DNA of 40,987 nt from Chloroflexota bacterium (lineage in GTDB: Bacteria; Chloroflexota; Limnocylindria; Limnocylindrales; CSP1-4): assembly GCA_021786385.1 (NCBI GenBank), contig JAJYNJ010000036.1, positions 1 through 40,987 on the forward strand, read 5' to 3'. Of the stretch, positions 3,472-37,112 are shown one piece after another; position 1 is the first letter of the stretch, and every line of letters begins with the position of its first letter. The position numbers and the translations under genes are program-made. A model generated the notes under the pieces. It was given only the letters and a program-made list of their open reading frames with translations, searched no databases and was not told the origin of the DNA.

Positions 3472-3894
3472 GTGGGTCGACCGTTCGTGATCCAGCTCGA
3501 GAACCGTGTGGGCGAGCTCGCGCACCTGACGCGCGCGTTGGCCATCCGTGGCGTCAACATCGAGCACGTCGTCGGCACGAGCGCCGGTGACAAGATGTGC
3601 GCGCGGATCACGACCGACGACGACGCGCTGACACGCGAGGTGCTCCGCAGCCTGGACCTCCCGTTCGTGGAAGGCGACGCCCTGCACGTGGAAGTCGAAG
3701 ATCGCCCGGGCGGCATCGCGGCGCTGACCGAACGGCTGGCCGCGGCCGGTGTCAACGTCACGGGGATCTTGACCGTGGGGCGTCGCAACGGCATGACCCA
3801 CCTGGCGTTCACGGTCGACGACGAGGCGCGCGCCCGCGAAGCCTTGGGCCTGCCTTCGGTGGTGGTGCCGGCTGGGACCCGGTCAGGGGCCTGA
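3472..3894 (+). CDS. Tandem ACT-domain protein
   Basis: A 140-residue protein that consists almost entirely of two ACT domains, roughly residues 3-68 and 70-130. Each shows the beta-alpha-beta opening with a glycine after the first strand (ENRVGELAHL and EDRPGGIAAL) followed by the alpha helix and GVN turn. ACT domains generally bind amino acids and regulate metabolic enzymes; stand-alone double-ACT proteins have no assigned reaction. An upstream ATG (3253) keeps the frame open, but the GTG at 3472 has AGGAGG (3461-3466) with a 5-base spacer and starts exactly at the domain, so it is chosen. It ends 22 bases before the ETF gene, suggesting an amino-acid-sensing partner for an oxidation pathway. 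The stop codon lies inside a 14-base perfect palindrome, GGCCTGATCAGGCC (3888-3901). Confidence 0.85.
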   Translation: MGRPFVIQLENRVGELAHLTRALAIRGVNIEHVVGTSAGDKMCARITTDDDALTREVLRSLDLPFVEGDALHVEVEDRPGGIAALTERLAAAGVNVTGILTVGRRNGMTHLAFTVDDEARAREALGLPSVVVPAGTRSGA

Positions 3895-3916
3895 TCAGGC
3901 CGCCCGCCAGACACCC

Positions 3917-5821
3917 ATGCACTGCATCGTCCTGGTCAAGCAAGTCCCCGACGTCTCGAACATCCCGGAAGCTGCGTGGGACACCGACAAGGGCACCCTC
4001 AGGCGCGGCATGCTCGAGAGCATCCTCAATCCGCTGGACCTCCACGCGGTCACGTTCGCCAGCCGTATCACCGCGGCTGATCCAGGGTCTCGCACGGTCT
4101 ACCTGACGATGGGGCCGCCTCAGGCACGCGAGGTGCTGATCGACTGCATCGCGCGCGCGCCAGGGGAGGGGGTGCTCCTGACGGATCGTGGGTTCGCGGG
4201 AGCCGACACGGTGGCCACGGCCTACTCGCTGGCCTGCGCCATCCGGCGCATCGAGCGCGAGTTCTTCGACGGCAGCCGTGCGTACGTGATCGTCGCCGGG
4301 ATGCAGTCCGTGGACGGCGACACGGCGCAAGTTCCGCCGCAGATCGCCGAGGAACTGGGGATCGAGCAGATCGCCTACGTCGCCGGCCCCGAGGTCGGGC
4401 CCGCGTTCGAGGTCCGGCGCATCGGCCCCGAGGCCACGGAGACGGTGCGGCCGCGGCGCTTCCCGGTGCTCGTGACACTGACCGCCTGCACGGAACCGCT
4501 GTATCGGTCGTTCCACCGGGCCCGCGCTGCGCGCGGCGCGTCGATCCACGAATGGAGCGCCGCGTCCGTGGAGGCACGACCCGAGCGGATCGGGCTGCGC
4601 GGTTCGCGCACCCAGGTCTACCAGCTCTTCTCGCCCAATGAGGGCAAGGCGCGCAGCTGTCTCTTCGCGCACTCGATCGAGGAACTCGTGGCGCTGATCG
4701 ATGCGCGCTACCGCAGCGGCCCCCGCCGCGCGCCCACCGATGCGGATCCCCCCTATGACCTCGCCGGCCGGACCCCCAGCTACGGGGGCGAGTTCTGGGT
4801 CTACGCCGAGCGCGAGGGAGACGGGATCCGCTCGGTCTCCTTGGCCTTGTTGGGCAAGGCGCGGCAGCTCGCCGCGCCGCTGGGAGCGCCGGTCGGGGCC
4901 GTGCTGGCCGGTGCCGAGCTCGGTGCGCTTGCCGGCGAGCTGGTCGCGTACGGCGCGGACCGGGTCTACGTGCTCGAGCACCCCCTGTTGCGGCATGCCA
5001 TCGCGAGTGCCCACGCCCAGGCCGTGGCGAGCGCGGTGCGCACGCACCGGCCCCAGGTGATGCTCTTCGGCGCGACGCCGTGGGGACGCGAGTTGGCACC
5101 CCGCGTGGCGTACGCCTCGGACTGCGGGCTCACCGCCGATTGCACGAAGCTTGAGATCGGCGACTATGCGAAAGGGAGCGTCTCGTTGGTGGCGATCCTC
5201 AAGCAGACCCGGCCGGCGCTCGGCGGCAACGTCATGGCCACCATCATGACGCGCGCGTCGCCGACCCAGATGGCCACGGTGCGCCCGGGTGTCTTCAGCG
5301 TGCCCCAGCCGGACCCGGCGAGGACGGGGGAGGTCATCCGCGTCGCGCCGGAGGTGCGTGAGGATTCGATCGGGCTCGAGATCGTCGCCCTCGAGCCGGC
5401 GGCCGCGGCGTCGTCGATCCGCGACGCCCAGGTCATCGTTGCCGGCGGCCGGGGCCTGCGCTCGCGGGCCGAGTTCGAGGCCCTGCTGGAGCCGCTAGCA
5501 CGCAACCTTGGGGCGCGCTTGGGCGCCCGTAGCGAGATCGGTGCGTCGCGCATGGCAGTGGAGGACGGCTACGCGAGTCGGGATCGCCAGGTGGGGCAGA
5601 CGGGCCAGACCGTGACGCCGCGCCTCTACGTCGCCATCGGCATCTCGGGTGCGGTGCAGCACATCTCGGGCATGCAGCATGCCGACCTCGTGGTGGCCAT
5701 CAATCGCGACCCACGGGCGCGCATCTTCGACTACGCGGACATCGGCATGGTCGGCGACCTCGCCCAGGTGGTGCCCGCGCTCATTCGCGCGACGGAGGTC
5801 CTGACCCATGCCGCCCATTGA
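3917..5821 (+). CDS. Fused electron transfer flavoprotein, beta-alpha order
   Basis: ETF collects electrons from acyl-CoA and other dehydrogenases and passes them to a quinone oxidoreductase. It is normally two proteins; here both are in one 634-residue chain. Residues 1 to about 265 are the beta subunit, beginning with the hallmark IVLVKQVPD and containing AGMQSVDGDTAQVPPQ. Residues from about 288 are the alpha subunit, and its FAD domain shows VAGGRGLRSR (from 506), QVGQTGQTV (from 558), GISGAVQH and the terminal AINRD...IFDYADIGMVGDL. The linker (about 266-287) is proline- and aspartate-rich. The ATG at 3917 fits the family start, although no strong ribosome binding site precedes it, so coupling to the ACT gene is possible. 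Its 3' end overlaps the next gene by 14 bases. Fusion is real rather than a missed stop because the frame is continuous. Confidence 0.95.
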   Translation: MHCIVLVKQVPDVSNIPEAAWDTDKGTLRRGMLESILNPLDLHAVTFASRITAADPGSRTVYLTMGPPQAREVLIDCIARAPGEGVLLTDRGFAGADTVATAYSLACAIRRIEREFFDGSRAYVIVAGMQSVDGDTAQVPPQIAEELGIEQIAYVAGPEVGPAFEVRRIGPEATETVRPRRFPVLVTLTACTEPLYRSFHRARAARGASIHEWSAASVEARPERIGLRGSRTQVYQLFSPNEGKARSCLFAHSIEELVALIDARYRSGPRRAPTDADPPYDLAGRTPSYGGEFWVYAEREGDGIRSVSLALLGKARQLAAPLGAPVGAVLAGAELGALAGELVAYGADRVYVLEHPLLRHAIASAHAQAVASAVRTHRPQVMLFGATPWGRELAPRVAYASDCGLTADCTKLEIGDYAKGSVSLVAILKQTRPALGGNVMATIMTRASPTQMATVRPGVFSVPQPDPARTGEVIRVAPEVREDSIGLEIVALEPAAAASSIRDAQVIVAGGRGLRSRAEFEALLEPLARNLGARLGARSEIGASRMAVEDGYASRDRQVGQTGQTVTPRLYVAIGISGAVQHISGMQHADLVVAINRDPRARIFDYADIGMVGDLAQVVPALIRATEVLTHAAH

Positions 5822-7490
5822 CGTGCTGATCGTGGGGGCCGGTCCGGCGGGGCTCGCGACGGCGATCCGGCTGCGCCAACGCCTGGCAGCGGCCCGACGC
5901 GAGGCGTCGGTGGTGGTGCTCGACAAGGCAGCGGCGCCGGGTTTCCACAACCTCTCCGGGGCGATCGTGGAACCGGCTGCGCTGGATGAGCTGCTGCCCG
6001 ACTGGAAGAGCGACCACAGCCGCTTCGCGGACCACGTGACGCCGGTCGAGCGCGACGAGCTGTACCTCCTGACCGCGCGCCGCGCGGTGCGCCTGCCGGC
6101 GCCGCTGGTCCCGCAGCCGATGCGCCACCCGGGCGACGTCACGCTCCCGGTGTCGAGCCTGGCGGCGTTCCTGAGCGCGCAGGCGGCGCGCCTCGGGGCC
6201 GAGGTGTACCACGGTTTCGCCGCGCGCGAGCTCTTGCTCGACGCTGGGAGCGTGCGGGGGGTCCGTCTGGTCGACGTGGGCCTCGACGAGGCCGGTCGCC
6301 CCAAGGCGAACTACCTGCCGGGGGAAGAGGTACACGCGACGATCACGGTGCTCGCCGACGGCTCGCACGGCGTGCTCTCCTCGCAGCTCGCCGACCTGGG
6401 CCGCAGGGGCAACGGCGCCAGCGACGGACGCAAGGGGCACGACGTCGGCGCGGGACATGACCCGGGAATGGCGAGTGGCCGGGGAGTGGCGGGTGACCCG
6501 GCCGGGCGACGCGACCCGCAGGTCTATGGGCTTGGGGTCAAGGCCCTGGTCCAGTTCGCCGGTGCCAACCCCTTCGGCACCAACCGGGTCGTGCACACCG
6601 TTGGGTATCCCGCGTGGCGGGGCATCTTCGGGGGCGGCTTCATCTACAGCATGGGGCCGAAGACTGCGGCAGTGGGGCTCATCCTGGGGCTCGATTGGCG
6701 CTACGGCGATCTCGATCCGCGGGTCGAGTTCGAGCGCTTCCGAGCCCATCCCTTCGTGGCGCGTCTGCTCGAGGGGTCGACCACGATCGCGGCCGGGGCC
6801 AAGACGATCCCCGAGGGCGGCTACTACGCGTTGGGGCCGCTCCATGCCGCCGGTGCGTTGGCGGTCGGCGACGCCGCGGGGTTCGTCAACGAAGCGAAGC
6901 TCAAGGGGGTGCACTACGCGCTGCGCAGTGGCATGTGCGCGGCGGACGCGATCGCCGACGTCCTGCTGGCGGGCGAGCCGCCCGAGGCCGCGGGGGCTCG
7001 CTATCTGGGGCGGCTGGAGCAACGCGGCATCCTTGCCGAGCTCTACCGTGCCCGCAACTACCGCCAGGGCTTCCAGTGGGGGCTGCTGCCTGGGGCATTC
7101 CTGTCTGTGGTGGGGGATCGCCTGCCCGTGCATCTGCGGATGCCGCCCGATCGGCAGGGCACGCGCCCGGGTGCCCGCCTGGCGCGTCGGCTGCCCGAGG
7201 GGGTCGACGGGGCCGGGTTCCTGAGCTTGACCGGCACGTCGCACCGCGAGGACGAGCCCGCGCACGTGGCGCTCGTGGACCCGGCGCGCTGCGTCGCGTG
7301 TGGGACGGCGGACGAGGCCGCCTGCACGCACTTCTGTCCCGGCGAGGTCTACCGCTGGAGCGGCGAGCGGATCGTGCTCAGCCCGTCGAACTGTCTGCAC
7401 TGCATGACGTGCACCGTAAAGTGTCCGCAGGACAATATCCGTTGGACGCCGCCGGAGGGCGGGGAGGGGCCGCGCTACCGGCAGCTCTGA
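5808..7490 (+). CDS. ETF:quinone oxidoreductase / FixC-FixX-like flavoprotein
   Basis: A 560-residue membrane-associated flavoprotein expected to take electrons from ETF to quinone. The FAD-binding VGAGPAG is at residues 8-14. The remaining body (GFHNLSGAIVEP, GPLHAAGALAVGDAAGFVN, KLKGVHYALRSG) follows the ETF-QO/FixC family. The C-terminus has eight cysteines: C495, C498, C506, C510 and C529, C532, C535, C539, ending PPEGGEGPRY. Classic ETF-QO has four cysteines for one [4Fe-4S] cluster; eight resemble the separate FixX ferredoxin, implying two clusters. Residues about 198-236 are a glycine-rich insertion encoded partly by an 18-base tandem repeat. GGAGG precedes the ATG with a 9-base spacer, and the start overlaps the ETF gene by 14 bases. 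ETF-QO and a fused FixCX are both plausible names. Confidence 0.93.
   Translation: MPPIDVLIVGAGPAGLATAIRLRQRLAAARREASVVVLDKAAAPGFHNLSGAIVEPAALDELLPDWKSDHSRFADHVTPVERDELYLLTARRAVRLPAPLVPQPMRHPGDVTLPVSSLAAFLSAQAARLGAEVYHGFAARELLLDAGSVRGVRLVDVGLDEAGRPKANYLPGEEVHATITVLADGSHGVLSSQLADLGRRGNGASDGRKGHDVGAGHDPGMASGRGVAGDPAGRRDPQVYGLGVKALVQFAGANPFGTNRVVHTVGYPAWRGIFGGGFIYSMGPKTAAVGLILGLDWRYGDLDPRVEFERFRAHPFVARLLEGSTTIAAGAKTIPEGGYYALGPLHAAGALAVGDAAGFVNEAKLKGVHYALRSGMCAADAIADVLLAGEPPEAAGARYLGRLEQRGILAELYRARNYRQGFQWGLLPGAFLSVVGDRLPVHLRMPPDRQGTRPGARLARRLPEGVDGAGFLSLTGTSHREDEPAHVALVDPARCVACGTADEAACTHFCPGEVYRWSGERIVLSPSNCLHCMTCTVKCPQDNIRWTPPEGGEGPRYRQL
6458..6511 (+). repeat. Degenerate 18-base tandem repeat inside the ETF-QO insertion
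   Basis: Three adjacent 18-base units (6458-6475, 6476-6493, 6494-6511) share the pattern TGRCCSGGG...TGGCGRG, with the third the most diverged. Eighteen is a multiple of three, so the expansion adds six residues per unit without breaking the gene. The units lie in a segment of the protein that has no counterpart in the conserved ETF-QO core. Confidence 0.6.
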
Positions 7491-7493
7491 GTC

Positions 7494-7512
7494 GCCGGCC
7501 GACGGGGCCGGC
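7494..7512 (+). terminator. Possible terminator hairpin after the ETF operon
   Basis: GCCGGCC (7494-7500) pairs perfectly with GGCCGGC (7506-7512) around a 5-base loop, starting 4 bases after the stop of the ETF-QO gene. There is no T-run behind it, so termination is inferred from position and stem strength only. Confidence 0.4.
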
Positions 7513-7845
7513 CTCCAGCCACCTGTTGCACGATGTCTCGATCGGCGAGCTCGCTCGGTCGACGTCCGGCGCCGCCGACGCCGCGTTCCACCTTCGACTA
7601 TCCGGCACGCGTGGGGGAGGGGACCACGGGTAGCGTACGCATCATGGACCGCGAGGCCATCCACGCCCGAAGCGCGCATCTGCGCCCCGGCGGCGTCCGT
7701 CTCGTCGACGAGAAGCGGAGCGGGGACGTGCGCAGGGTGCCCGGGGGCATGTGGCCCGTACGGAGCAGCGGGTCGGAATGCCGCGCCGGCTGCTTCTTGC
7801 GCCGCTTGCATCCCCAGCAACGTATCCACGAATCCGCGCTGTTTC

Positions 7846-7855
7846 GTTGCGTAAC
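7846..7855. promoter_or_regulatory. Dyad site 1, GTTGCGTAAC
   Basis: First of three near-palindromes fitting GTTRCRYAAC in the region upstream of the S53 peptidase gene. It is the exact reverse complement of site 2. A role as a regulator binding site is inferred. Confidence 0.3.
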
Positions 7856-8058
7856 TTTCACCCGGGGAACCGTATGCACGACCTGGAGCCTCTGGCGCGG
7901 CGCCCTGGGTTCGGCGCCGCCCGCGCGCCGCTCCCGCCGGCCGCCTCCACGCACGCCTGGCGGGCCCAACGCCACTCCCGGCACTCGCGACGTGCCCGCC
8001 CGGGATGGGGCCGCCTCATCCGTCGCGCAACATCGCGCATACGTTTCCCCCGATGATC

Positions 8059-8068
8059 GTTACGCAAC
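8059..8068. promoter_or_regulatory. Dyad site 2, GTTACGCAAC
   Basis: Second of the three sites, the exact reverse complement of site 1 and 203 bases from it. The start of the S53 peptidase gene is 324 bases downstream. Confidence 0.3.
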
Positions 8069-8130
8069 AACTGGGGCGACCCGCACGGCGGCGCGACCGT
8101 ATAGGCGGCTGGGGGCGGCAGGGCCAACCT

Positions 8131-8140
8131 GTTACATAAC
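8131..8140. promoter_or_regulatory. Dyad site 3, GTTACATAAC
   Basis: Third of the three sites, with a perfect GTTA/TAAC dyad. It is flanked by GCCAA (8123-8127) and TTGGC (8141-8145), which add an outer inverted repeat. Confidence 0.3.
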
Positions 8141-8391
8141 TTGGCTTATCGGAAGTGCATGACTCGTGCCAGGCCGGCTCGCCACGAGCCGAATCCGGTG
8201 CGCCGGCGCACCGCCCCGGCCATGATCGGGTCCTGCGGACCTTGCGGGTCAACTTACAATGGACCTCTCCGCGGAGCGCGATCCGCTGCGGTTCGTTCTT
8301 TCGGCCGCCCCGACCACGACGCGCTACTGGCAGGACCGACCCGCGAACTCAGGCGAGCCACGGACGGGCTCGCACCCCGGAGGAGGTGCGC

Positions 8392-9930
8392 ATGCGATCA
8401 CTCCTGAGCCTGCTGGCAGCCACGGGGCTGCTGGCGGGACTGGTCACACCGGCGGCGCCGGCCACCCTCGCGGCTGCTGGGCCTTCCCTGGTGCCGCTCG
8501 CGATCGAGGCGCCCGGCGCGCAGGCAGGACTGGCCGGTGGCACCGCCCCGGCCTGTACGACACCCGGGCCGGTGGTCGTCCACTATACCTGGTACCACTG
8601 CTACAGGCCGTCCGACATCGTGGCGGCCTACGACCTCGCCGACGTCCAAACCGCTAGTGACTACGGCGCAGGCCAGACCATCGTCCTCGTGGACGCCTAC
8701 GGTAGCCCGACGGCCGCCGCGGACCTGCAGCAGTTCCATGACATGTTCTACCCGACCCTAGCGAACCCGAGCTTCGAGCAGGTGTTCCCGCAGGGCAACC
8801 CGCAGTACCAGAACACCGCGCACGGCGTCGGGTTGTCGGGACCGAGCGCCGCGGCCGGCTGGGCCGGCGAGGCGACGCTCGACATCGAGTGGGCCTACGC
8901 CATCGCACCCCTGGCCCACATCGTGCTCCTGGCGGTGCCGCCCGCCGAGACCGAGGGCGTGCAGGGCTTCCCCAACCTCTTCGACGCCATCTCGTGGGCG
9001 ATCGACCACTACCCGGCCGGGACGATCTTCTCGCAGAGTTTCGGGGTCACCGAGCAAACCTTCGAGGGCGCCGCAGCTGTGCAGACAGCCCGGTTCGACG
9101 CGGTCTACCGGGCCGGCAACGCCAAGGGCGACACGTTCCTCGCCTCGTCCGGGGATGACGGCACCACCGGCGTGGCGAAGCAGCAGATGGAGAGCCGCAC
9201 CTACCCGCATCCGACCGTTGGCTGGCCCGCCTCGAGCCCGGACGTAACCGCCGTCGGCGGCACGCAGCTGCAGTACGGCTGGACCTGGGCTCCGACGAGC
9301 GACACGCCGTTCCTGTCGAGCGGACCGAACCCGGCCTACTTCGCGTACACGACCAGCGGCACCAGCGAGGTCGTGTGGAACGAGAGCTGGCTGCCCGCGG
9401 CGAGCGGCGGTGGCCCCAGCGCCATCTACCCGCGGCCCGCCTGGCAGTCGAGCGTGGCGCCGGTGATCGGCGCCAACGCCCGCGGCGTCCCCGACCTCGC
9501 CTGGAACGCCGCGGTCAACGGCGGCGTCCTTGTCTACACCTCGTTCTACCCGAACGTGAACCGGGTGGGCTGGCACATCTACGGCGGGACCAGCGCCGCC
9601 TCGCCGCAGGTGGCGGGGCTCATCGCCCTGGCGAACGCGCAGCAGGCCACGGCGCACGAGCCGCCTATCGGCGACGTGGCGCCGCTCCTGTACTCGGCTA
9701 CCTGGACGGGGGCCTTCACCGACATCGTCCCGGTCACCGAGGGGACGGCGGCCTCCGGCAACCTCGCCGACAACACCCTCTGGCAGTACAACGCCGACGG
9801 CTCGGTCTCGGCAGGTCCGGTGCCCGGGCATGCGGTCCTGGCGGGCTGGGACATGGGGACCGGCTTCGGCTCGCCGATCGGCGGCCCGTTCGTCGCGGAC
9901 CTGAGGGCTGCCCGGAACGCGCTGCCCTGA
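8392..9930 (+). CDS. Secreted S53 family (sedolisin) serine-carboxyl peptidase
   Basis: An exported acid endopeptidase, 512 residues. A signal peptide is visible at residues 1 to about 25 (MRSLLSLLAATGLLAG then an alanine-rich region). The catalytic residues of the family are all present: E160 and D164 in GEATLDIEW, oxyanion D255 in SSGDDG, and nucleophile S401 in GGTSAASP. The C-terminal FTDIVPVTEG...AGWDMGTGFGSP resembles the calcium-binding loop. Only about 45 residues separate the signal peptide from the catalytic domain, so the roughly 180-residue prodomain usual in kumamolisins is absent or nearly so. The frame is open further upstream, but the ATG at 8392 has a strong GGAGGAGG site with a 5-base spacer and opens the signal peptide. 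It is a single-gene unit closed by a strong hairpin. Confidence 0.94.
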   Translation: MRSLLSLLAATGLLAGLVTPAAPATLAAAGPSLVPLAIEAPGAQAGLAGGTAPACTTPGPVVVHYTWYHCYRPSDIVAAYDLADVQTASDYGAGQTIVLVDAYGSPTAAADLQQFHDMFYPTLANPSFEQVFPQGNPQYQNTAHGVGLSGPSAAAGWAGEATLDIEWAYAIAPLAHIVLLAVPPAETEGVQGFPNLFDAISWAIDHYPAGTIFSQSFGVTEQTFEGAAAVQTARFDAVYRAGNAKGDTFLASSGDDGTTGVAKQQMESRTYPHPTVGWPASSPDVTAVGGTQLQYGWTWAPTSDTPFLSSGPNPAYFAYTTSGTSEVVWNESWLPAASGGGPSAIYPRPAWQSSVAPVIGANARGVPDLAWNAAVNGGVLVYTSFYPNVNRVGWHIYGGTSAASPQVAGLIALANAQQATAHEPPIGDVAPLLYSATWTGAFTDIVPVTEGTAASGNLADNTLWQYNADGSVSAGPVPGHAVLAGWDMGTGFGSPIGGPFVADLRAARNALP

Positions 9931-12727: not shown

Positions 12728-14263
12728 TCACCCCGCGGGCAGTTGCCGCGCGCCGGCCGCGAGCACCCCATCCGGCGCCACGCCGAAGACGCGCCGATAG
12801 ATGTCGGCACCGTGGCTCGTGGGGAGCGGTTCACCCTCGACGAGCCGGAACGTTCGCCGCCCGTCGGGCAGCCGCTCGGCCCGCAGGAACAAGGCGTCGG
12901 CCGAACGCTCGCGCAGGAGGCTCGCTGCGAGGTCGAACATGTGCGTCACGTAGCCGACCTTGATGCCCGCCTCCAAGAGGGCCCGCAGGATCTGCCGCGC
13001 GATTTCCGAGCCCTCTCGCTCGTTCGTGGAGGCGAATGATTCGTTGAAGAGGACGAGACTTCGCGGCGTGACGTGGTCGACGATCCAGCTCATGCGTCGC
13101 AACTCTTCGTCGAGCTTGCCACTCTGGAGCTCGGAATCTTCCTCGCGCTTGAAGTGCGTGAAGATCCCATCCCGCACGTCGGCTCGGAAGGCTTCCGCCG
13201 CCACGAAGAGGCCAGACTGCATCATCAGGTGGGCAAGGCCGACGCTGCGCAAGAACGTCGATTTTCCCCCGCGATTGGCGCCCGTGATCACGATCAGCCG
13301 CTTGCTGTCGGCCGTCACGTGGTTGCCGGTCACGCGCTCCGGCGTGCTCAGGCTGAGCGAGGGGTCGTACAGGGACCGAGCCGACAGCATCGGCGTTGCG
13401 CCCGACACGGGTTCCGGCAGACAGGTCGGCTCGCCCTTGCGGATCAGTTGCTCGTGCAGGTTGAGGCAGCCGACGTAAAAACCGAGCTCGACCCGGAGCT
13501 GGCCGAAGAAGCTCAGGATGTGGTCGGCTGATTGGGCCAGCGCGTTGGCCGCGAGCGCGATGCCACGACCCCGCAGCTCCCCCAGTGCCCGCGCGCCCGC
13601 CTCGTCGCGATCTGCGATCTGATACGTATAGCTGCCCGGGTCGGCAAGGCCGATTCGCTCCCGCCAGCTCGGCCTGCGGACGCGCCGCCGCAACACGTAG
13701 TTCGTCCCTCGATTGGCGGCGCCGAGCTCCGCGCTCAGGAGGACGCCATCGCGGAACTGCAGGCGCCGGAGGTGCTCCTCGACCGTCTGCAGGTAGCCAT
13801 CCTCCAGCTCGCGGAGCATTTCGGCGAAGAGTCGCGCGAATCCTGCGGATCGGAAGGCTGCCGCGTGGCGTTCGGCGACGGCGCGCACCCGCTTGAGCAT
13901 CTCGACGAAGAGATGCATGACGTCGACAGACCGGTGGAGCAGCGAGCTGGGGTCCGATTGACCGAAGATCCAGTAGCGCCGCTCGCGTTCGATCGCTTCC
14001 ACGGCGAGCGCGTAGAGCTCGCGCACGACCGCGGGCTGTGCCAGGCAGTCGATGAGGACGGCCTGTCGGTAGCGGATGGCGTCCGGGTCGGTCAGGCTCG
14101 TCAGCACGGCCCTTCTCGCCACATCGAGCAAGAATCGATCACCCGCCGCCATCGCGCCAACGAGCACGTCCAAGCCGAGATCCTGGCTGAGCGCGTCGGC
14201 GTTCGGCGGCAGGTCGGCGGCCGGATCGAAATCGCGGTCTTGGTACATCAAGCAGACGTGCAT
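12728..14263 (-). CDS. MutS-related ATPase, second gene of a pair
   Basis: A 511-residue protein with the helical lever/clamp-like region and C-terminal ABC-type ATPase of MutS, but no N-terminal mismatch-recognition domain. Walker A is GANRGGKST (328-336). The Walker B region reads LVLFNES (403-409), with Asn where mismatch-repair MutS has Asp before the catalytic Glu. A motif FTHFKREE followed by GKLDEELRRM (about 368-391) is shared with the neighbouring gene. Family members are annotated as MutS-like proteins of unknown role; canonical mismatch repair is not implied. It overlaps the upstream paralogue by 16 bases, so the two are very probably translated together and may form a heterodimer. 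Exact function unknown. Confidence 0.88.
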   Translation of the reverse strand: MHVCLMYQDRDFDPAADLPPNADALSQDLGLDVLVGAMAAGDRFLLDVARRAVLTSLTDPDAIRYRQAVLIDCLAQPAVVRELYALAVEAIERERRYWIFGQSDPSSLLHRSVDVMHLFVEMLKRVRAVAERHAAAFRSAGFARLFAEMLRELEDGYLQTVEEHLRRLQFRDGVLLSAELGAANRGTNYVLRRRVRRPSWRERIGLADPGSYTYQIADRDEAGARALGELRGRGIALAANALAQSADHILSFFGQLRVELGFYVGCLNLHEQLIRKGEPTCLPEPVSGATPMLSARSLYDPSLSLSTPERVTGNHVTADSKRLIVITGANRGGKSTFLRSVGLAHLMMQSGLFVAAEAFRADVRDGIFTHFKREEDSELQSGKLDEELRRMSWIVDHVTPRSLVLFNESFASTNEREGSEIARQILRALLEAGIKVGYVTHMFDLAASLLRERSADALFLRAERLPDGRRTFRLVEGEPLPTSHGADIYRRVFGVAPDGVLAAGARQLPAG

Positions 14264-15837
14264 GGCCCAATGCGCGCTCTCACGCCTTCGTAGGTCAACC
14301 GGTGCTTCTCTGCGAGCGCCGCGGCGTACGCCAGCCCGTCTGCGGGCCGGCGGACGATCTTGAAGGTCCGGCGTGCCGGTTCCTCGGGATCGACGGTGCT
14401 GACCATGCTCACGGTGGATGGGTGGAGCGACGCCAGCTCGTCGAGGAATGTGACGACGACGCCGAGCATCCCGCGCGCGATGGCCGCCTGCAGCACCTCC
14501 TGGCTGATGATGAGTTGGTCGGTCACGGTCGTCGAGCTGAAACTCTCGTTCATCAGCAAGAGGCTGTCAGACGTGGCCTGCTCCAAGATCTGTCGCATCC
14601 GATGGAGATCGTGTTCCAATTTCCCGGTCAGATCCTCGACGACCTCTTCTCGTTCGAAATGGGTGAAGATCTGGTCGACGAGGTAGAGGCGCGCCTCGAC
14701 GCCGGGCACGGGAACGCCGATCCTCGCGAGGTGATGGAGCTGTCCGATCGTGCGGGCGAACGTCGTCTTCCCCCCTTGATTCGGCCCGGAAACGACGAGG
14801 ATCCGTTCGGCCCCTTCAAGGTAGAAGTCGTTGGTGACGACGGTCGCGTGCGCGTCGACGAGCCGTTTGGCGAGAGCCAGATCGAACATGCCTCGGCCGT
14901 AGATCGCCTTGGAGTGGTCGCTGACCTCGGGATAACAGAACGGCAACCCGGCTTGCCTGAGCCGGTCGACGTGCTCGAGGTACGCGATGTAGAACTGGAC
15001 CTCGCGATCGAAACGGCGGATCTTCGGGTCCGGGAACTCACGATGGCGCGCGCAGTACGCGTCGAGCGATCGGAAGAGATCGGGAAACAGCCGCGCGACC
15101 CGCTCGACGATCGCCGCTTCGACGTGGTTCATCTCCGACCCTGCGGAGAACTGGAAGCGGTACTCCTTGCCGGCACCCCGCTTGAATTTCGCGAACGACT
15201 GCAGCACTTCTGCGCCGTAGTCGGGCTCCCCGTCGTAGCGGCTGACGGTGACTCGGGTCCCGTCGATGCGGAGCTGGTACCGGACGGCGGCGAGGTCGGC
15301 GTTGAGCTGCCGGGTGTCGTCCCGCAACGCTGTGAACTCTGGCGACCCGGTGTACCGCTCCAGGTAGTCACGCAACGCGAGCAGGCCGCGCGAGTGGATC
15401 TCGGCGCCTGCCAGCTCGCGGGTCAGCACAGCGACCGCGTCGCAATAGATGGCCGCAGCGTCGACGACCCAGCGCTCCTGCTCGTAGCGGTAGTGCGCCT
15501 TGTTGGCCCGGGCGAGGTGTGCGCGCATCGCCTGCATGCTGCGGGCGAACGATTCGACGATGCTGCGCGCTGCCGTGCCCTCGAGGTCGCGAAAGACGTC
15601 GTGACGGTAGCGGATCGTGCCGACGTCGCGTAGCGGCGCGTAGAAGATGGGAGCCAGGTTGTACGCCTCGCGCCCGGACGTGATCGACGCGACGGTCTCG
15701 TGGAGGTGCAGGTCGCCGAAGTACTCGGGCGGTGGGAGCGTCTCGGCCGCTGCCTCTGGGTCAGGCCGGTCGAAGAGGATGCTCTCGAACGACGGATCAG
15801 GCGGTCGCTCGACCTCGCCCGTGGGTCCCTGGTCCAT
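14248..15837 (-). CDS. MutS-related ATPase, first gene of a pair
   Basis: A 529-residue paralogue of the following gene. It has a mostly helical N-terminal region, Walker A GPNQGGKTT (351-359), and Walker B region LLLMNES (426-432), again with Asn-Glu. The motif FTHFEREE followed by GKLEHDLHRM (about 391-414) is shared with its partner and corresponds in place to the MutS segment between Walker A and Walker B. No mismatch-recognition domain, no endonuclease Smr domain. The frame is open to 16005; the ATG at 15837 is chosen because conserved-looking sequence begins there, but its ribosome binding site is weak (AAGAGA), so the start is uncertain. It overlaps the downstream gene by 16 bases. Confidence 0.87.
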   Translation of the reverse strand: MDQGPTGEVERPPDPSFESILFDRPDPEAAAETLPPPEYFGDLHLHETVASITSGREAYNLAPIFYAPLRDVGTIRYRHDVFRDLEGTAARSIVESFARSMQAMRAHLARANKAHYRYEQERWVVDAAAIYCDAVAVLTRELAGAEIHSRGLLALRDYLERYTGSPEFTALRDDTRQLNADLAAVRYQLRIDGTRVTVSRYDGEPDYGAEVLQSFAKFKRGAGKEYRFQFSAGSEMNHVEAAIVERVARLFPDLFRSLDAYCARHREFPDPKIRRFDREVQFYIAYLEHVDRLRQAGLPFCYPEVSDHSKAIYGRGMFDLALAKRLVDAHATVVTNDFYLEGAERILVVSGPNQGGKTTFARTIGQLHHLARIGVPVPGVEARLYLVDQIFTHFEREEVVEDLTGKLEHDLHRMRQILEQATSDSLLLMNESFSSTTVTDQLIISQEVLQAAIARGMLGVVVTFLDELASLHPSTVSMVSTVDPEEPARRTFKIVRRPADGLAYAAALAEKHRLTYEGVRARIGPCTSA

Positions 15838-16154
15838 GATGGACCGTCTCTTGCGGACGCCCTGGACGGACGCAGACGGCGTACGGAGCCGGGGGTCCGA
15901 GGCGACCCCGGTCGCGGTGGGGAGAGGTGCTGGGACCTCCATTCGACAACCGGCCTCCGCGTGCATCCACGTAGAGACCGTCAGCGGGCGTCTGCCGCAG
16001 ATCACCGGACCGCTGGGTCCGATCGGCGAGCCTCATCGCCGACTGCATTCTATCCAATGCGTGCGTGCGGGGGGATCGCGCGCACATCTCCCCGCGAGAG
16101 CCGAGCCTGACGCGTTACCGGTTCATGCGCAGACGCCCGTGCAGGGGGGTTGGA
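15838..16154. other. Intergenic region upstream of the MutS-like pair
   Basis: These 317 bases follow the lipoprotein stop codon and precede the MutS-like operon on the same strand. No gene is evident. A TAGAAT on the minus strand near 16053 could be a -10 element for the operon, but no -35 match sits at the right distance. A small GGCGA/TCGCC hairpin lies at about 16024-16040. Confidence 0.5.
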
Positions 16155-21653: not shown

Positions 21654-22025
21654 TCAATCGGTCGACGCGGGTCGTGTGGACGCGGGGCGCGTCGTCGCCG
21701 CGCGGCGGCCGCGCGGCGTCAACACCCAGCCACGCCCCAGACCGCCGAGCACGCAGCTCGCGCGCAGCGGGCAACCGGAGCAGCCGGCGCTGCAGCTCGC
21801 CGCGACGGCCCGCAGATACCCGCGCCGCTCGAGGCCCGCGATGATGGCCCCGACCAGGGCTTCGCTGATGCCGAGCTGCCGGGCCAGGTCGGCCGGAGTC
21901 CGGAATCCGCCCACCTTCAGACGCTCGAGCAACGCACCGACGATGCCCTGTTCGCCGGCCGTGGTGATCGGATCACGCACGGCAGCCAGCGCACGGCGGT
22001 GGGCGCCCCGCGGCCTAGCCGGCAT
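21654..22025 (-). CDS. feoC: FeoC-like winged-helix regulator with four cysteines
   Basis: A 123-residue protein whose middle is a winged helix (GIVGALLERLKVGGFRTPADLARQLGIS...LVGAIIAGLERRGYL), followed by C78-x3-C82-x2-C85-x5-C91. FeoC proteins combine just such a winged helix with a cysteine-rich wing that can bind an iron-sulfur cluster, and are thought to regulate or stabilise FeoB. The longer C-terminal tail, rich in Arg, Ala and Thr, is not conserved-looking. The ATG at 22025 lies inside the end of feoB (11-base overlap), consistent with a coupled feoABC operon. DNA binding, protein binding or both remain possible. Confidence 0.8.
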   Translation of the reverse strand: MPARPRGAHRRALAAVRDPITTAGEQGIVGALLERLKVGGFRTPADLARQLGISEALVGAIIAGLERRGYLRAVAASCSAGCSGCPLRASCVLGGLGRGWVLTPRGRRAATTRPASTRPASTD

Positions 22026-24039
22026 GGAGCCACGTCCCGACGCGGTACACGATGGCGCCGGCTGAGAGCGAGATGACGAGCAGGAGCCCGAGATCCACAA
22101 GCGCCCACTTCCAGCCGCCGCTCTCCTGTCGGATGACGGCGACGGTCGCCACGCAGGGGATGAAGAGCATCTGGACGACGAGGAACGCCAGACCTGCCGC
22201 CGGCGTCACGGTGGGGGCCAAGTTGGCGGCCAAGTCGGTGCCGCCCCGACCGGATGTGAAGAGGATCCCGAGGGTGGCGATCGTGTTCTCCTTGGCCACG
22301 AAACTCGTCAGCAAGGCCACGATCATCTGCCAGTCGAGTCCCAGGTGGGCGCCGAGCGGGGCGAAGGACCGACCGATCGCCGCGAGGTAGCTGGTCTCCA
22401 TCTCTCTGGTCGGGAACGTCGCGAGCACCCAGACCAGCACGGAAAGGACCACGATGATGCCGCCTGCCTTCTTGAGGAACGCGACCGTCCGTTGCCACAC
22501 GGCAAGCGAGATGGTGCGGACGTTGGGCAGATGGTAGAGGGGCAGTTCCATGATGAACGCGGCGTGCTTGCCGCCGAAGGCGAACCGGTGCAGCAGGACG
22601 CCGGTGAGCGCGAGTGTCGCCAGGCTCAGGCCGACGAGCGCCCACATCACCCAAAAGGCCGCGGCGCCGAAGAAGATCGGCGCGAGGACCGTCACTACCG
22701 CCATGCGCGCCGTGCATGGCACGAGCGGCGCGACCAGGATGGTGAGGAGGCGTGCCTTGGGCGAATCGATGATGCGGGTGCCCAGGACCGCCGGGACGTT
22801 GCACCCGAAGCCCAGGAGCAGCGGGAAGAACGACTTGCCGTGCAGGCCCATGAGGTGCATGTAGCGGTCCATGACGTAGGCGATGCGCGCCATGTAGCCG
22901 ACGTCCTCCAGGAGCGCGAGGACGGCGAAGAAGATGAGCAGGATCGGCAGGAACGTGATGACCGTCCCGGCCCCCGCCAGCACCCCGTCCGCGAGCACGC
23001 CCGATAGCCACCAGGGCGCCCCGGCAAGGACCTGGTGCAGCCATGACGCGCCGCCCTCGACGAAATACGTGTCGAGGAGACCCTGCAGCGGCGCGCCGAT
23101 CGCGTACGCCAGCCAGAAGACGGCGCCCAGGATGGCCAGCACGAGGAGCAGCCCCCAGAACGGGTGCGTCGCGACCCGGTCGATCTCGTCGGTCAGGACG
23201 ACCTGTCCGACGCGCGGCCGGGAGACGGCGGCGCGCACCATCCGGGCGATCCATTCGTACCGGCTGCTGGCGATCTCGAGGATCGCGTCTTCGTGCCGCA
23301 GGAGGAGCGCATCGACCTGCTCCCACTCGCTCGGCGACAAGCGCTCGCGGATCATCTGTGAGATCTCGGTGTCGCCTTCGAGCAGCTTGAGTGCCACCCA
23401 GTCGTGCGGATAGGGCGCTGGCACGGCAGGCGCCACCAGCCGCTCGAGTTCTTGGGCCACACGTTGCTGCTCTGGGTCGATCTGCGGTCGCGAGGGGGCG
23501 TAGCCCGCTGGGTCGCGGGCCGTGCGCAGGATCACCTGGACCAGTTCCCGGACGCCCTGGTTCTTCACGGCGATCATCGGCACCACCGGCAGCTTGAGGG
23601 CGCTCTCCAGCACCGCGGGTTCGACGTGGATGCCACGTCGTTCGGCGACGTCCAGCATGTTGAGAGCGACGACGACGGGGGCCGGCAGCGCGAGCAACTC
23701 TGCCAGGAGGTACAGATTGCGCTCGAGGGCGGCGACATTGACGATCAGCACCACGAGGTCCGGGCGCTCCTTGATGACGAAATCCCGCGCAACCCGTTCC
23801 TCGGGCGAGTCCGCCGTCAGGCTGTACGTACCCGGGAGGTCGACCAGCTTGATCTCGACGCCTTCTTCACCGCGAGCGTAGTGCACACCCGTCTTCTGCT
23901 CGACCGTCTTGCCGGGCCAGTTGCCGACATGCTGGCTCAACCCGGTCAACATGTTGAAGACGGTGGACTTGCCGACGTTGGGCTGGCCGGCCAGGGCAAC
24001 CGTGATCTGGCGCGTTGCGGCGCCCTGTGTCACGGTCAT
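22015..24039 (-). CDS. feoB: Ferrous iron transporter FeoB
   Basis: Inner-membrane Fe(II) transporter, 674 residues. The cytoplasmic G domain has G1 GQPNVGKST (18-26), G2 around TVEQKTG, G3 DLPGTYSL and G4 NMLD, followed by the helical spacer domain. From about residue 275 come the membrane segments with two Gate regions, including the LLLGFGCNVPAVLGTR stretch whose cysteine is conserved in the family, and a C-terminal set of helices. Length is within the usual 650-780. The ATG overlaps the feoA stop codon as ATGA and the 3' end overlaps feoC, so the three are translationally coupled. Confidence 0.97.
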   Translation of the reverse strand: MTVTQGAATRQITVALAGQPNVGKSTVFNMLTGLSQHVGNWPGKTVEQKTGVHYARGEEGVEIKLVDLPGTYSLTADSPEERVARDFVIKERPDLVVLIVNVAALERNLYLLAELLALPAPVVVALNMLDVAERRGIHVEPAVLESALKLPVVPMIAVKNQGVRELVQVILRTARDPAGYAPSRPQIDPEQQRVAQELERLVAPAVPAPYPHDWVALKLLEGDTEISQMIRERLSPSEWEQVDALLLRHEDAILEIASSRYEWIARMVRAAVSRPRVGQVVLTDEIDRVATHPFWGLLLVLAILGAVFWLAYAIGAPLQGLLDTYFVEGGASWLHQVLAGAPWWLSGVLADGVLAGAGTVITFLPILLIFFAVLALLEDVGYMARIAYVMDRYMHLMGLHGKSFFPLLLGFGCNVPAVLGTRIIDSPKARLLTILVAPLVPCTARMAVVTVLAPIFFGAAAFWVMWALVGLSLATLALTGVLLHRFAFGGKHAAFIMELPLYHLPNVRTISLAVWQRTVAFLKKAGGIIVVLSVLVWVLATFPTREMETSYLAAIGRSFAPLGAHLGLDWQMIVALLTSFVAKENTIATLGILFTSGRGGTDLAANLAPTVTPAAGLAFLVVQMLFIPCVATVAVIRQESGGWKWALVDLGLLLVISLSAGAIVYRVGTWLHAG

Positions 24040-25877: not shown

Positions 25878-26873
25878 TCAACCGGCCCCAGCCGTCTCCA
25901 GGAACCGGCGCACTAGCTCCAGCGCCCTGGGGTATGGATCGTGCGCCGCGTCGATCCACTCGATCCCCGGTTCGGCGCGGAACCACGTGCGCTGCCGGCG
26001 GGCATACGCACGGGTCCGCACGATCGTCTCGGCGAGCGCCTCGGCGGTGGTGCGGCGTCCGTGCACGACCTCGATCGCCTCGCGGTAGCCGATCGCGCTG
26101 AGCGCCGGCAGGGTCGGGTCGTAGCGGGAGGCCAGCGTCGCCGCCTCGTGCAGCAGCCCGCCCGCGTACTGGCCCGCCGCGCGGTTCGCGATCCAGACCC
26201 GATGCGTGGCGTGCTCCACGCGCAATCCGATCCAGAGCACGGGAGCCGGGTATCCCTCGGGCTCGGGGGGCGGGCGATCCCCGACCAACGTCGCGCGCTC
26301 CAGGGCGCGCACGACGCGGCGGGGGTTGGCCAGGTCCGTGCGCGCAGCCAGGAGCGGCGCGATCTGCGCCAGTCGGGCGGCGAGGGCGGCGATCCCCTGG
26401 CGCGCCAGGTCCGCCTCGAGGCGTGCTCGCAGCTCGGGATCGTGTGGCGCCTCGGTGAGCGGCACGCCGCGGGCGACGGCGCGCAGGTAGAGCCCGGTGC
26501 CGCCGACGAGCAACGCGACCCGACCGCGGCGGGCGATCGCGGCGAGCGCGTCCAGCGCATGGCGCTGGTAGAGCGACACGCTGAACGGTTCGTCGGGGTT
26601 GACGAGATCCAGGCCGTGGTGCGGCACCAGCGCCCGTTCGGCCGGCGTCACCTTGGCCGTGCCGATGTCCATCCCGCGGTAGACCTGTCGCGAGTCGGCC
26701 GAGATGATCTCCGCGTTGCCGAGCGTCGTAGCCAGACGCAACGAGAGACGTGTCTTGCCGGTCGCGGTGGCGCCCGCGATGACGACCAGTGGGGGGAGGC
26801 GCGGAGGGAGACGGCGTGCGGCCTCGCCCTGCTCGCCCTGCTCGCCACGACCGCCGGACGACGGGGCGAGCAT
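25878..26873 (-). CDS. miaA: tRNA dimethylallyltransferase MiaA
   Basis: Transfers an isopentenyl group to A37 of tRNAs that read UNN codons; MiaB next door then methylthiolates the product. The 331 residues show the P-loop GATATGKT (34-41), the DSRQVYRGMDIGTAK segment, and VGGTGLYLRA. About 27 residues precede the core, including a low-complexity GEQGEQGE run. The ATG at 26873 is 4 bases after the miaB stop codon, so the pair is translationally coupled. Confidence 0.96.
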   Translation of the reverse strand: MLAPSSGGRGEQGEQGEAARRLPPRLPPLVVIAGATATGKTRLSLRLATTLGNAEIISADSRQVYRGMDIGTAKVTPAERALVPHHGLDLVNPDEPFSVSLYQRHALDALAAIARRGRVALLVGGTGLYLRAVARGVPLTEAPHDPELRARLEADLARQGIAALAARLAQIAPLLAARTDLANPRRVVRALERATLVGDRPPPEPEGYPAPVLWIGLRVEHATHRVWIANRAAGQYAGGLLHEAATLASRYDPTLPALSAIGYREAIEVVHGRRTTAEALAETIVRTRAYARRQRTWFRAEPGIEWIDAAHDPYPRALELVRRFLETAGAG

Positions 26874-26877
26874 CGGA

Positions 26878-28539
26878 CTATGCCGCGGGTCCGACGAGCG
26901 AGCCGGTCAGCGAGTATGGACCGGCGTGTTCGATGCGCACGCGGACCAGCTGTCCGACGAGGTCGGCCGGGCCGGCAAGGTGGACCAGCTTGTTCTCGCG
27001 GTTGCGGCCGCCGAGCCGCACTCCGTCCGCGGGCACGGCGCGGCCGGCAACCTCGCGGGGGTCGCCGCGGTCGTCCGCGCCGTGCTCGTGGCCGCGCGGA
27101 CGGTCGACCGTGTCGACCAGCACCTCGGTCGTACGGCCGACCCACGCTCGGTTGCGTTCCCAGCCGATCACTTCCTGCAACGCGAGCAGCTCGTTGAGCC
27201 GGCGGCGCTTCTCGTCGGCCGGTACGTCGTCGGGGAGCCGCGCCGCCGGGGTGCCCGGGCGCGGCGAGAAGGCGGCCGCAAAGACCGTGTCGAAGCGGAC
27301 CCGTTCGAGGAGGGCGAGCGTCTCCTGGAACTGCGCCTCGGTTTCGCCGCAAAACCCGACGATCACATCGGTGCTGAGGCCGATGCCGGGCACCGCCCGG
27401 CGCAAGCGCTCCACGAGGTCGAGATAGGAGGCCACCGTGTACTGGCGCCCCATCCGGTGCAGCACCGCGTCCGAACCGGACTGTACGGGGAGGTGCAGGT
27501 GCTCACAGACCGAAGGGCACTCCGCCATCGCGGCGATCAGACGCTCGCCCAGATCCCACGGGTGCGAGGTGATGAAGCGCAGGCGTGGGATAGCCGGAGC
27601 GCCATCGGCGGTGCGGATCGCATCGATCGCGCGGAGCAGCTCGGCGATGTCGGGGCGCCCGTCGAGCTCGATCCGGCGGCCGATCTCGCGACTGCGCCGA
27701 ACGTGTGCGAAGCGCGGCTCCGCAGGCAGGTCGTGGCCGTACGAGTTGACGTTCTGGCCGAGCAGGGTGACCTCCCGATAGCCTGCCGTGGCCAGGCGGC
27801 GCGCCTCGGCCACGACGTCGTCGAACGGCCGGCTCCGCTCGGGCCCACGGCTGAACGGCACGATGCAGTACGTGCAGGTCTTGTCGCAGCCGTAGATGAT
27901 CGGCAGCCAGGCCTGGATCGTGCTGCGACGCGCGACCTGCGCGCCAGCGACGGCCCGAGCACGCACAGCGGGCAGCGCGTCAGCGGCCGGGCGGGCCAGG
28001 GGCGTAGCCGCGTCGACCCCCTCGGCCGGCTCCGTGGCGCCGCGCGCCAGGAGGCCGGGCGCGGTCGGGCTCGCCAGCCCGAGGCGCGCCACCAGCTCGG
28101 GCTCTTCGTCGGGCCGTAGGAAGAGATCGACGGCGGGGTAGCGTCGGGCCAGCCGGTCGCGGTTCTCGGGGCGTACCGCGCACCCGGTCAGGACCACCCG
28201 CAGCCCCGGGCGTGCCGCCTTGAGACGGGCCAGATACCCCTGGCGGCCGATGATCTTCGCCTCGGCGGTCTCGCGGATCGCGCAGCTGTTGATCACGATG
28301 AGGTCTGCCTCGTCCATGGAGGGGGCCTCGGCGCAGCCCGCGGCGAGCAGCGCGCCCGCCATCTCCTCCGCATCGGACTGGTTCATCTGGCAGCCGAGCG
28401 TCCACACGTGGAAGCGCGGCAACGCCAGATCGTCGGTGGCGAACTCGCCGAGGCCATGGGCGGATGCCGCGGGACGCCGCGGCATCTCCGCGCGCCGGGG
28501 GGCCGGGATGTCGAGGACGGGGAGCGGACGGGCACTCAT
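26878..28539 (-). CDS. miaB: tRNA methylthiotransferase MiaB
   Basis: Adds the 2-methylthio group to isopentenyl-A37 of tRNA using two iron-sulfur clusters. Cluster cysteines C50, C86 and C120 lie in the N-terminal domain and the radical SAM C218-x3-C222-x2-C225 (CDKTCTYC) follows; a TRAM domain ends the protein. At 553 residues it is about 100 longer than usual. The extra length lies in an N-terminal extension of about 40 residues, an Ala/Pro-rich linker at about 155-205, a basic insert near PAEPRFAHVRRSREIG, and a charged insert in TRAM (RPRGHEHGADDRGD). The next ATG, at residue 19, could also be the start. It follows the PHP gene by 12 bases. Confidence 0.95.
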   Translation of the reverse strand: MSARPLPVLDIPAPRRAEMPRRPAASAHGLGEFATDDLALPRFHVWTLGCQMNQSDAEEMAGALLAAGCAEAPSMDEADLIVINSCAIRETAEAKIIGRQGYLARLKAARPGLRVVLTGCAVRPENRDRLARRYPAVDLFLRPDEEPELVARLGLASPTAPGLLARGATEPAEGVDAATPLARPAADALPAVRARAVAGAQVARRSTIQAWLPIIYGCDKTCTYCIVPFSRGPERSRPFDDVVAEARRLATAGYREVTLLGQNVNSYGHDLPAEPRFAHVRRSREIGRRIELDGRPDIAELLRAIDAIRTADGAPAIPRLRFITSHPWDLGERLIAAMAECPSVCEHLHLPVQSGSDAVLHRMGRQYTVASYLDLVERLRRAVPGIGLSTDVIVGFCGETEAQFQETLALLERVRFDTVFAAAFSPRPGTPAARLPDDVPADEKRRRLNELLALQEVIGWERNRAWVGRTTEVLVDTVDRPRGHEHGADDRGDPREVAGRAVPADGVRLGGRNRENKLVHLAGPADLVGQLVRVRIEHAGPYSLTGSLVGPAA

Positions 28540-28551
28540 ACGCGCCTCAGT

Positions 28552-30311: not shown

Positions 30312-30317
30312 CGGTGG

Positions 30318-31853: not shown

Positions 31854-31861
31854 GTGCGCCT

Positions 31862-31882
31862 CCCGTCCAGCCGACGGGCTGG
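31862..31882 (-). promoter_or_regulatory. Overlapping alternative hairpins at the rny ribosome binding site
   Basis: Read on the minus strand, CCAGCC (31882-31877) can pair with GGCTGG (31872-31867). Alternatively CCCGTC (31878-31873) can pair with GACGGG (31867-31862). The two cannot form together because they share bases. The second takes the GGG of the GGGAGG ribosome binding site into its stem. A translational switch for RNase Y is inferred from this geometry only. Confidence 0.4.
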
Positions 31883-32049
31883 AAGGTGGAAGTGTGTGAG
31901 CAGGGGTGCCGTGCGCTCCCACCTGGACGCACGGGTCGCCTGGGCCAGAAACGCGTCGCCGTGATCGCGGGCCGAGCGCCCCGGCCGTTGAGTCACGCGC
32001 GCCGCACTATCGATCCGGGGCGAAGCCTATACGCGGGTCGGAGGTGGCG

Positions 32050-32682: not shown

Positions 32683-32762
32683 CGACTACGCCCGCACACA
32701 GGCGGCGTCCGCCAGGCGCCGTGGCCGGACCGGCGCTGCGCCGCGGGGCTCTCCCCCGGCCG

Positions 32763-33848
<1,086 letters not shown>

Positions 33849-33884
33849 CCTGCTCTCCTCTTCCGTGCGGGGCCTAGGCCGGCG

Positions 33885-34046: not shown

Positions 34047-34121
34047 GTCTCCGCCTCCGCGGTGCACCGTCAGCCTAGGCGATGCACGTTGACTGCGACT
34101 TCACCCCTCGTTTGTGTCAGC

Positions 34122-37096: not shown

Positions 37097-37112
37097 TGGA
37101 GCACCCTCCCCC

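Follow-up and report, generated by a model that had tools for sequence, protein, structure and literature searches.

What purpose is served by two overlapping genes for MutS-like ATPases that carry no mismatch-recognition domain? The question is raised by positions 12,728 to 15,837 of a stretch of 40,987 nucleotides (nt) from a Chloroflexota bacterium (assembly GCA_021786385.1, contig JAJYNJ010000036.1), the whole of which is called the window below. Our analysis suggests that the two genes, here named A and B, are translationally coupled and that their products form an asymmetric heterodimer of MutS-core ATPases acting in the fluoride stress response. The fluoride-response role is strongly supported and very likely, and an A-B heterodimer, whose contact we infer, is likely. 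Fluoride role, heterodimer and a function other than mismatch repair are probable when taken jointly, with remodelling included only as the leading mechanism. The genes are arranged as follows:

14248-15837, minus strand: gene A (upstream), MutS-core ATPase of 529 amino acids, domains III-V only, with Phe where the switch histidine would be
12728-14263, minus strand: gene B, MutS-core ATPase of 511 amino acids, domains III-V only, clamp reduced to a small basic hairpin, switch histidine retained
14248-14263, minus strand: overlap of A and B, 16 bases; a 4-base ATGA overlap in most relatives

The link to fluoride comes from the relatives of the pair. A scan of the named GTDB genome collection with gene B gave at least 583 relatives, the best 80 of which underlie all counts of named loci, and a second set consisted of 301 genomes of the phylum searched with gene B, about 33 of which hold a full-length or partial orthologue. 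The two sets partly share contigs (e.g. loci L125/L041, L084/L037 and L128/L043). A fluoride riboswitch match on the same strand lies within 800 nt upstream of A in 34 of the 65 named loci with A's start on the contig and in 17 of 26 phylum loci, one count in each set (L125 and L041, the same contig) resting on a match weaker than E = 0.01. Matches anywhere were found at 59 of the 80 named loci, and 65 of the 80 had a match or at least one neighbour from the set CrcB, enolase, DUF190, exchanger and Hyf; among the remaining 15 loci, 11 are contigs under 13 kb. At gathering level, the Rfam model RF01734 gave 16 matches in six pair loci, and many phylum genomes have a riboswitch of this quality immediately before A (e.g. 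G289, G255, G118, G072, G055, G206 and G028). Control loci of MutS1, MutS2 and KamC gave no riboswitch match (23 loci, 112,850 bases), nor did seven loci of single-gene relatives. Within the phylum, a riboswitch occurs in 27 of 33 genomes with gene B (a number that includes two chimeras and one fragment) versus 67 of 268 without it (Fisher p = 2.6e-10, uncorrected for relatedness).

The neighbouring genes tell the same story. Open reading frames within 7 kb of the pair were clustered over 113 stretches (80 named, 32 phylum including the seven single-gene relatives, and the window), and families were named by recognition and then by Pfam on one member each; gene calling in the high-GC loci was heuristic, so that the families rest on homology between loci, and small clusters that look antisense or spurious (e.g. 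#3, #6, #11 and #16) were not counted. The recurring families are an MFS transporter (27 stretches), a dynamin-like GTPase (24), enolase (22), CrcB (18), DUF190 (11) and DUF190-CBS (8) proteins, a Na+/H+ exchanger (10) and Usp (9), with hydrogenase-4/formate-hydrogenlyase-type subunits in 10-18 (Pfam on one subunit only). With relatives sitting under gathering-level aptamers and beside crcB and eno, the pair belongs to the fluoride riboswitch regulon. The initial annotation had left it with an unknown substrate, which still describes the molecular level, although a context now exists. Grouping with a MutS subfamily of known role, named there as an outcome that would speak against its view, came about by half: the regulon is known, and the role of the subfamily is a proposed one.

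Two further observations concern these islands. The dynamin-like GTPase is a repeated neighbour of the pair in fluoride islands (e.g. L131:13828-15630 and L206:9488-11605), and in a genome of the same genus riboswitch matches stand upstream of genes that by eye resemble hydrogenase-4/formate hydrogenlyase (L197, contig C72 of G139, 6208-8502), the MutS pair lying on another contig.

In the window itself, an aptamer-like element that the initial annotation had overlooked lies 127 nt upstream of gene A on the same strand, and probably is a working aptamer. Its parts are:

15965-16049, minus strand: fluoride riboswitch (crcB motif) aptamer-like element; RF01734 24.5 bits, E = 4.7e-4, cut-off 34
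15974-15978, minus strand: 3' strand of the pseudoknot, GUCUC, predicted from sequence and alignment to pair with GAGGC at 16030-16034
16006-16021, minus strand: inserted 6-bp hairpin CGGACC-CAGC-GGUCCG between P1 and P3, read from the sequence
15838-15964, minus strand: leader from the aptamer to gene A; in its minimum-energy fold the 3' pseudoknot strand pairs with a downstream GGAGGCC

At the Rfam gathering score RF01734 has no match in the window, the element appearing only under an E-value setting. An independent covariance model, built from 21 other riboswitches with the window element excluded, finds it at 23.5 bits (E = 2.2e-4) as the sole match in 41 kb; a first model (R1), which included the window sequence, held a single helix only and was not used. 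The pairings can be read directly (P1 GGCG/CGCC, pseudoknot GAGGC/GUCUC with one G-U, P3 GCGG/CCGC), and in the alignment of relatives both sides of the pseudoknot change in three of five pairs, with 100% of cells paired. A genome of the same genus has a similarly weak match before gene A (L042, 20.1 bits). The alternative pairing might serve as an expression platform, in a leader whose folding energy does not stand out from that of shuffled sequences (z = -1.23).

Elsewhere in the same genome (an assembly of 2.68 Mb in 100 contigs, 95.8% complete), the sole enolase gene sits among three riboswitch matches (L196:500-2068, contig C80 of G000) scoring 24.8, 20.0 and 16.8 bits, the last being weak (E = 0.029). 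The genome carries a MutS2-type gene in addition to the pair. No MutS_I domain was found in it, a search that was positive in 11 of 14 control genomes, and it has no MutS1.

The idea of an obligate heterodimer, put forward in the initial annotation, is well supported by gene order, since A directly precedes B. An A-type gene stands directly upstream of B on the same strand in 77 of the 80 named loci, the other three being cut by contig ends; in the co-occurrence check proposed there, relatives thus nearly always come as a pair. The ends of A and B overlap in 73 of the 80 loci (66 by the 4-nt ATGA, five by one base and two by more), and the remaining junctions among the 77 are one gap of 16 bases and three that are unresolved, A's reading frame stopping early. 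For gene B of the window, a second in-frame ATG, which begins at 14248, would leave an overlap of only 1 nt (TGATG); the start giving the 16-base overlap described earlier is preferred because it agrees with the conserved N-terminus of the family.

The ATPase sites of the two proteins are consistently unequal, as seen in the following motifs:

14761-14787, minus strand: gene A Walker A, GPNQGGKTT, read from the sequence
14545-14550, minus strand: gene A Walker B Asn-Glu (N430 E431), invariant in 57/57
14446-14448, minus strand: gene A F464, at the position of the switch histidine in MutS and gene B, F in 57/57
13256-13282, minus strand: gene B Walker A, GANRGGKST, read from the sequence
13040-13045, minus strand: gene B Walker B Asn-Glu (N407 E408), N in 65/66
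12941-12943, minus strand: gene B switch histidine H441, H in 66/66

Phe in A and His in B is the pattern expected of a heterodimer with one degenerate site, and does not in itself prove contact. The alignments used with the structures drew on 65 of the 80 named B and 56 of the 80 named A sequences. Asn-Glu at Walker B is no chance feature, given its presence in 57/57 A and 65/66 B sequences; the NES reported earlier is present in both proteins (LLLMNESFSST in A, LVLFNESFAST in B), as is the common stretch FTHF(E/K)REE...GKL...L.RM. Asp693 of E. coli MutS helps to hold Mg2+. A structure that by its title is E. coli MutS D693N (3k0s) is among the Foldseek matches, and a literature search on D693N found nothing. 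That Asn-Glu is an adaptation hardening the site against fluoride was considered and is weakened, since six Asn-Glu single-gene relatives have no riboswitch match in the 11-20 kb around each; the motif is thus not in itself a fluoride adaptation.

A tree of 53 rows (every fourth A row and every fifth B row; the MutS loci L149, L151, L152 and L160 were dropped because no reading frame passed the motif filter) places A and B each in one group (100/100). Together they join the six Asn-Glu single-gene relatives (94/91), with MutS1, MutS2 and KamC on the opposite side, a placement accompanied by long-branch warnings. Gene order, unequal motifs and separate groups thus all agree with the heterodimer, and only the word obligate has to be softened, in view of two A/B chimeras that consist of a single gene.

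Both chimeras (L059:8729-10252 and L201, about 3600-5150, each on the minus strand) have an A-type first half and a B-type second half with differing junctions, and both stand beside a fluoride riboswitch. They may be natural minimal versions or deletion products of tandem genes, and an assembly error is also possible. The six single-gene proteins (L054, L055, L056, L057, L060 and L061; 551-630 amino acids, Asn-Glu Walker B) occur in unrelated settings with no riboswitch match and form an uncharacterised sister group. A 639-residue MutS-like protein (L058:8191-10110) has GANNNGKT and Asp-Glu, and similar frames of 652 residues are found in several genomes belonging to a single genus of the phylum.

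The domain content of A and B places both in the MutS superfamily as core ATPases and sets them apart from its repair members. MutS_V is the only Pfam domain above its curated cut-off (73.1 and 57.6 bits against 30.2; 3.8e-20 and 2.2e-15), and the fold is that of the MutS core. As already noted in the initial annotation, the mismatch-recognition domain is missing: Pfam MutS_I gave no match at E<=1 in either protein, and the same holds for Smr. Scores against the NCBIfam equivalogs are far below the cut-offs for MutS (67.4 and 65.4 bits versus 480; a second model, 62.8 and 59.6 versus 641.7) and below those for MutS2 (73.8 and 60.9 versus 400) and KamC (NF052383; 64.6 and 39.8 versus 300). AlphaFold2 models (pLDDT 87.2 for A and 84.9 for B) resemble MutS, MSH2/MSH3 and MutS2 across domains III-V (Foldseek E ~1e-17), the best match of both being the MutS2 core 7vuf (4.4e-18 and 1.1e-17); in structural alignment, the best rows for MutS, MSH2/3 and MutS2 reach Z ~28-32 with a root-mean-square deviation of 3.4-9.6 over 356-454 residues. 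All that is left of the clamp in the models is a hairpin plus some 50 residues of loop; its median net charge is +5 (basic) in B and 0 (neutral) in A. Solved relatives found by sequence are MutS families only, besides one weak unrelated match.

These features suggest how the pair might work. Fluoride entering the cell would, together with Mg2+, bind the leader aptamer and switch on the expression of A and B. The proteins still have the lever arms and the ATPase, lack the mismatch-recognition and connector domains and retain only a remnant of the clamp; powered by ATP, they could work as a clamp or remodeller to release cell components that metal-fluoride complexes have stalled. The likeliest targets would be enzymes of phosphate chemistry, e.g. 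enolase or pyrophosphatase, or nucleotide-driven motors, and not mismatches. Two reasons favour metal-fluoride-locked enzymes as the target, namely that the islands consist of such enzymes and that KamC offers a precedent, by name only; fluoride-island genes largely encode fluoride-inhibited phosphate enzymes, as far as the accessible text of two papers goes (PMC11139923, PMC5533749). Protein remodelling or reactivation as the activity is a tentative proposal. A more specific version, in which a MutS fold turned fluoride reactivase binds the locked enzyme or motor by the lever half of A and pries it open by the ATPase of B, the chimeras being the minimal version, is rather doubtful.

Several points weigh against this picture. 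No aptamer lies within 800 nt at 31 of the 65 named loci that include A's start, and the element in the window may be decayed, as its 24.5 bits fall under the Rfam cut-off and it has UGAC for the conserved UGAU. The genome encodes no CrcB, and no other recognised fluoride gene was found among the window proteins scanned. The accessible text of the study of the fluoride resistance operon of E. cloacae (PMC5533749) does not mention MutS. Asn-Glu also occurs in the riboswitch-free single-gene relatives, the likeness to KamC is distant (64.6 and 39.8 bits versus 300) and KamC has Asp-Glu, and the basic clamp remnant of B would suit nucleic acid. Both the link to fluoride tolerance and the protein target are inferred from genes.

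MSH4-MSH5 type heterodimers bind branched or damaged DNA, and a fluoride-induced repair or clamp factor of this kind, limiting DNA damage under fluoride, would make use of the lever arms, the ATPase and the basic hairpin of B (median +5). It would also fit the proposal of Weinberg 2010, in the part of that paper available, that crcB-motif genes may respond to a stress capable of damaging DNA. The missing mismatch and connector domains, the neutral clamp region of A (median 0), the absence of MutS1 from the genome and the lack of mutL or any repair gene among the conserved neighbours inspected (the 21 largest clusters) all argue in the other direction, and we consider this reading unlikely. The match of both models to 7vuf, and the presence of the MutS2-collided disome structure 7qv3 among the matches, would instead suit a MutS2-like ribosome rescue induced by fluoride, in which ribosomes stalled by fluoride-trapped translational GTPases are split by the pair; this seems improbable with no Smr domain by Pfam, with a tree in which A and B group with the Asn-Glu single-gene relatives rather than with MutS2, and with translation genes missing from the conserved neighbours inspected.

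Ordinary mismatch repair is the function given in public annotation, where plasmid copies are labelled 'DNA mismatch repair protein MutS' and a plasmid paper does likewise (PMC6317114, in its accessible part). With no mismatch domain, scores of 67.4 and 65.4 bits where the curated model demands 480, an Asn-Glu Walker B and a fluoride context, that function is close to refuted. A KamC-type reactivase specific to a B12 aminomutase has a weak KamC score in its favour, far under the cut-off, and KamC rises above its cut-off in one of the 301 phylum genomes versus about 33 with gene B; neither PF09043 nor PF16552 was found in the genome, though control genomes gave none either, and we give this idea almost no credence. 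Membership in the KamC/B12-aminomutase system, first suggested by NCBIfam, was accordingly dropped on the low scores, the Asp-Glu of KamC and the lack of any association seen, and KamC is kept as a precedent by name. The fluoride-induced remodeller remains the preferred mechanism, with DNA repair and ribosome rescue as its serious competitors.

The pair is both widespread and mobile. Record titles of the named relatives include Chloroflexi, Acidobacteria, Proteobacteria, Actinobacteria, Firmicutes-type genera, Spirochaetes, Bacteroidetes, Bathyarchaeota, Nitrososphaerota and others. Among 72,556 plasmid records, 46-48 carry the pair; their hosts include Klebsiella (18), Rhodococcus (6), Citrobacter, Enterobacter, Burkholderia and Salmonella. 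Of 5,426 E. coli genomes, a single one contains the pair, again on a plasmid. A conjugative Klebsiella plasmid encodes an antiporter, Usp, A and B in a row, with a P-type ATPase, crcB, gpmA, eno, usp and a DHHA2-domain protein on the opposite strand; the DHHA2-domain protein occupies the place of ppaC (manganese pyrophosphatase) in the published E. cloacae operon. Related fluoride gene sets adjoin the pair on Enterobacter, Rhodococcus and Burkholderia plasmids, and on two enterobacterial plasmids (L202 and L203) a riboswitch model match of 27.3 bits precedes the antiporter. The plasmid records label the genes 'DNA mismatch repair protein MutS', 'MutS-related protein' or hypothetical. Viral spread found little backing, two short unannotated phage-labelled records matching the pair only in part, and a PADLOC scan of the pair for anti-phage defence systems gave nothing specific, with weak matches only (best E 0.0014).

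Around the pair, the window holds a gene for a FeoB-type ferrous iron transporter (22018-24039), for which no link to the pair was seen, and a tRNA-modification and recombination neighbourhood (25881-38258) of miaA, a miaB-like gene, RNase Y, recA, tgt and ruvB, near which no mutS1 or mutL was found among the genes scanned. The absence of an adjoining mutL or nuclease gene, as stated in the initial annotation, agrees with a Pfam scan of 20 other window proteins, a selection from the open reading frames, which found neither.

Parts of this picture have been in print for some time. The available sections of the literature tie 'mutS' to crcB-motif RNA since 2010 (Weinberg 2010), the crcB-motif genes being proposed there to respond to stress that can damage DNA, and a 2020 review repeats DNA repair and describes a fluoride super-regulon (PMC7266159); the term 'MutS' is not contained in the accessible text of a 2024 review of fluoride resistance (PMC11139923). 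The role of the E. cloacae FRM operon (ppaC-uspA-eno-gpmA-crcB-orf5249) was proven by knockout, according to the part of PMC5533749 available, and the corresponding part of PMC6317114 lists a plasmid mutS as a backbone mismatch repair gene, with CrcB elsewhere on the same plasmid. No two-gene fluoride MutS was described in the literature found on the pair's function, Baker 2012 lying outside its coverage. The fluoride link is thus partly in print, while the nature of the pair as obligate, asymmetric and not of mismatch repair appears new.

Fluoride resistance has so far been attributed chiefly to export and to additional copies of the enzymes that fluoride inhibits, and the pair, which probably helps cells to survive fluoride, would be a widespread and mobile third element, spanning Chloroflexota to archaea and conjugative Klebsiella plasmids under the label of mismatch repair in public records. 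The analysis says what the 'mutS' seen beside crcB RNA in 2010 probably is, and a corrected annotation would clear false 'mismatch repair' genes from plasmids. If the pair does free fluoride-trapped enzymes, the MutS fold would have acquired a new function, one also of use in engineering bacteria that degrade organofluorine compounds.

Compared with known systems, the pair shares with MutS1 and the MSH proteins the fold of domains III-V, the Walker A GxNxGGK(S/T) and an expected dimer with unequal sites, but has neither mismatch domain I nor connector II, a clamp of one hairpin, Asn-Glu for Asp-Glu, no switch histidine in A, and a place in a fluoride regulon. The MutS2 core (e.g. PDB 7vuf, 7vuk and 9kce) is equal in size and fold and is the best Foldseek match, whereas MutS2 itself is the product of one gene instead of two, has Asp-Glu, and forms a separate group in the tree, and its Smr domain is missing from the pair. 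KamC, the reactivase ATPase of lysine 5,6-aminomutase, is likewise a MutS-like ATPase of about 510 residues (the model has 508 positions) that by its NCBIfam name acts on an enzyme; it differs by the low score, by the Asp-Glu of the one KamC examined and by its preceding gene, which by eye encodes a different kind of P-loop protein. The fluoride riboswitch regulon (RF01734) offers the same upstream RNA and the same neighbour genes, its mutS member not having been described in the papers found as a two-gene, asymmetric family free of the mismatch domain. The E. cloacae FRM operon comes close in gene content, as the same kinds of genes adjoin the pair on Klebsiella and Enterobacter plasmids.

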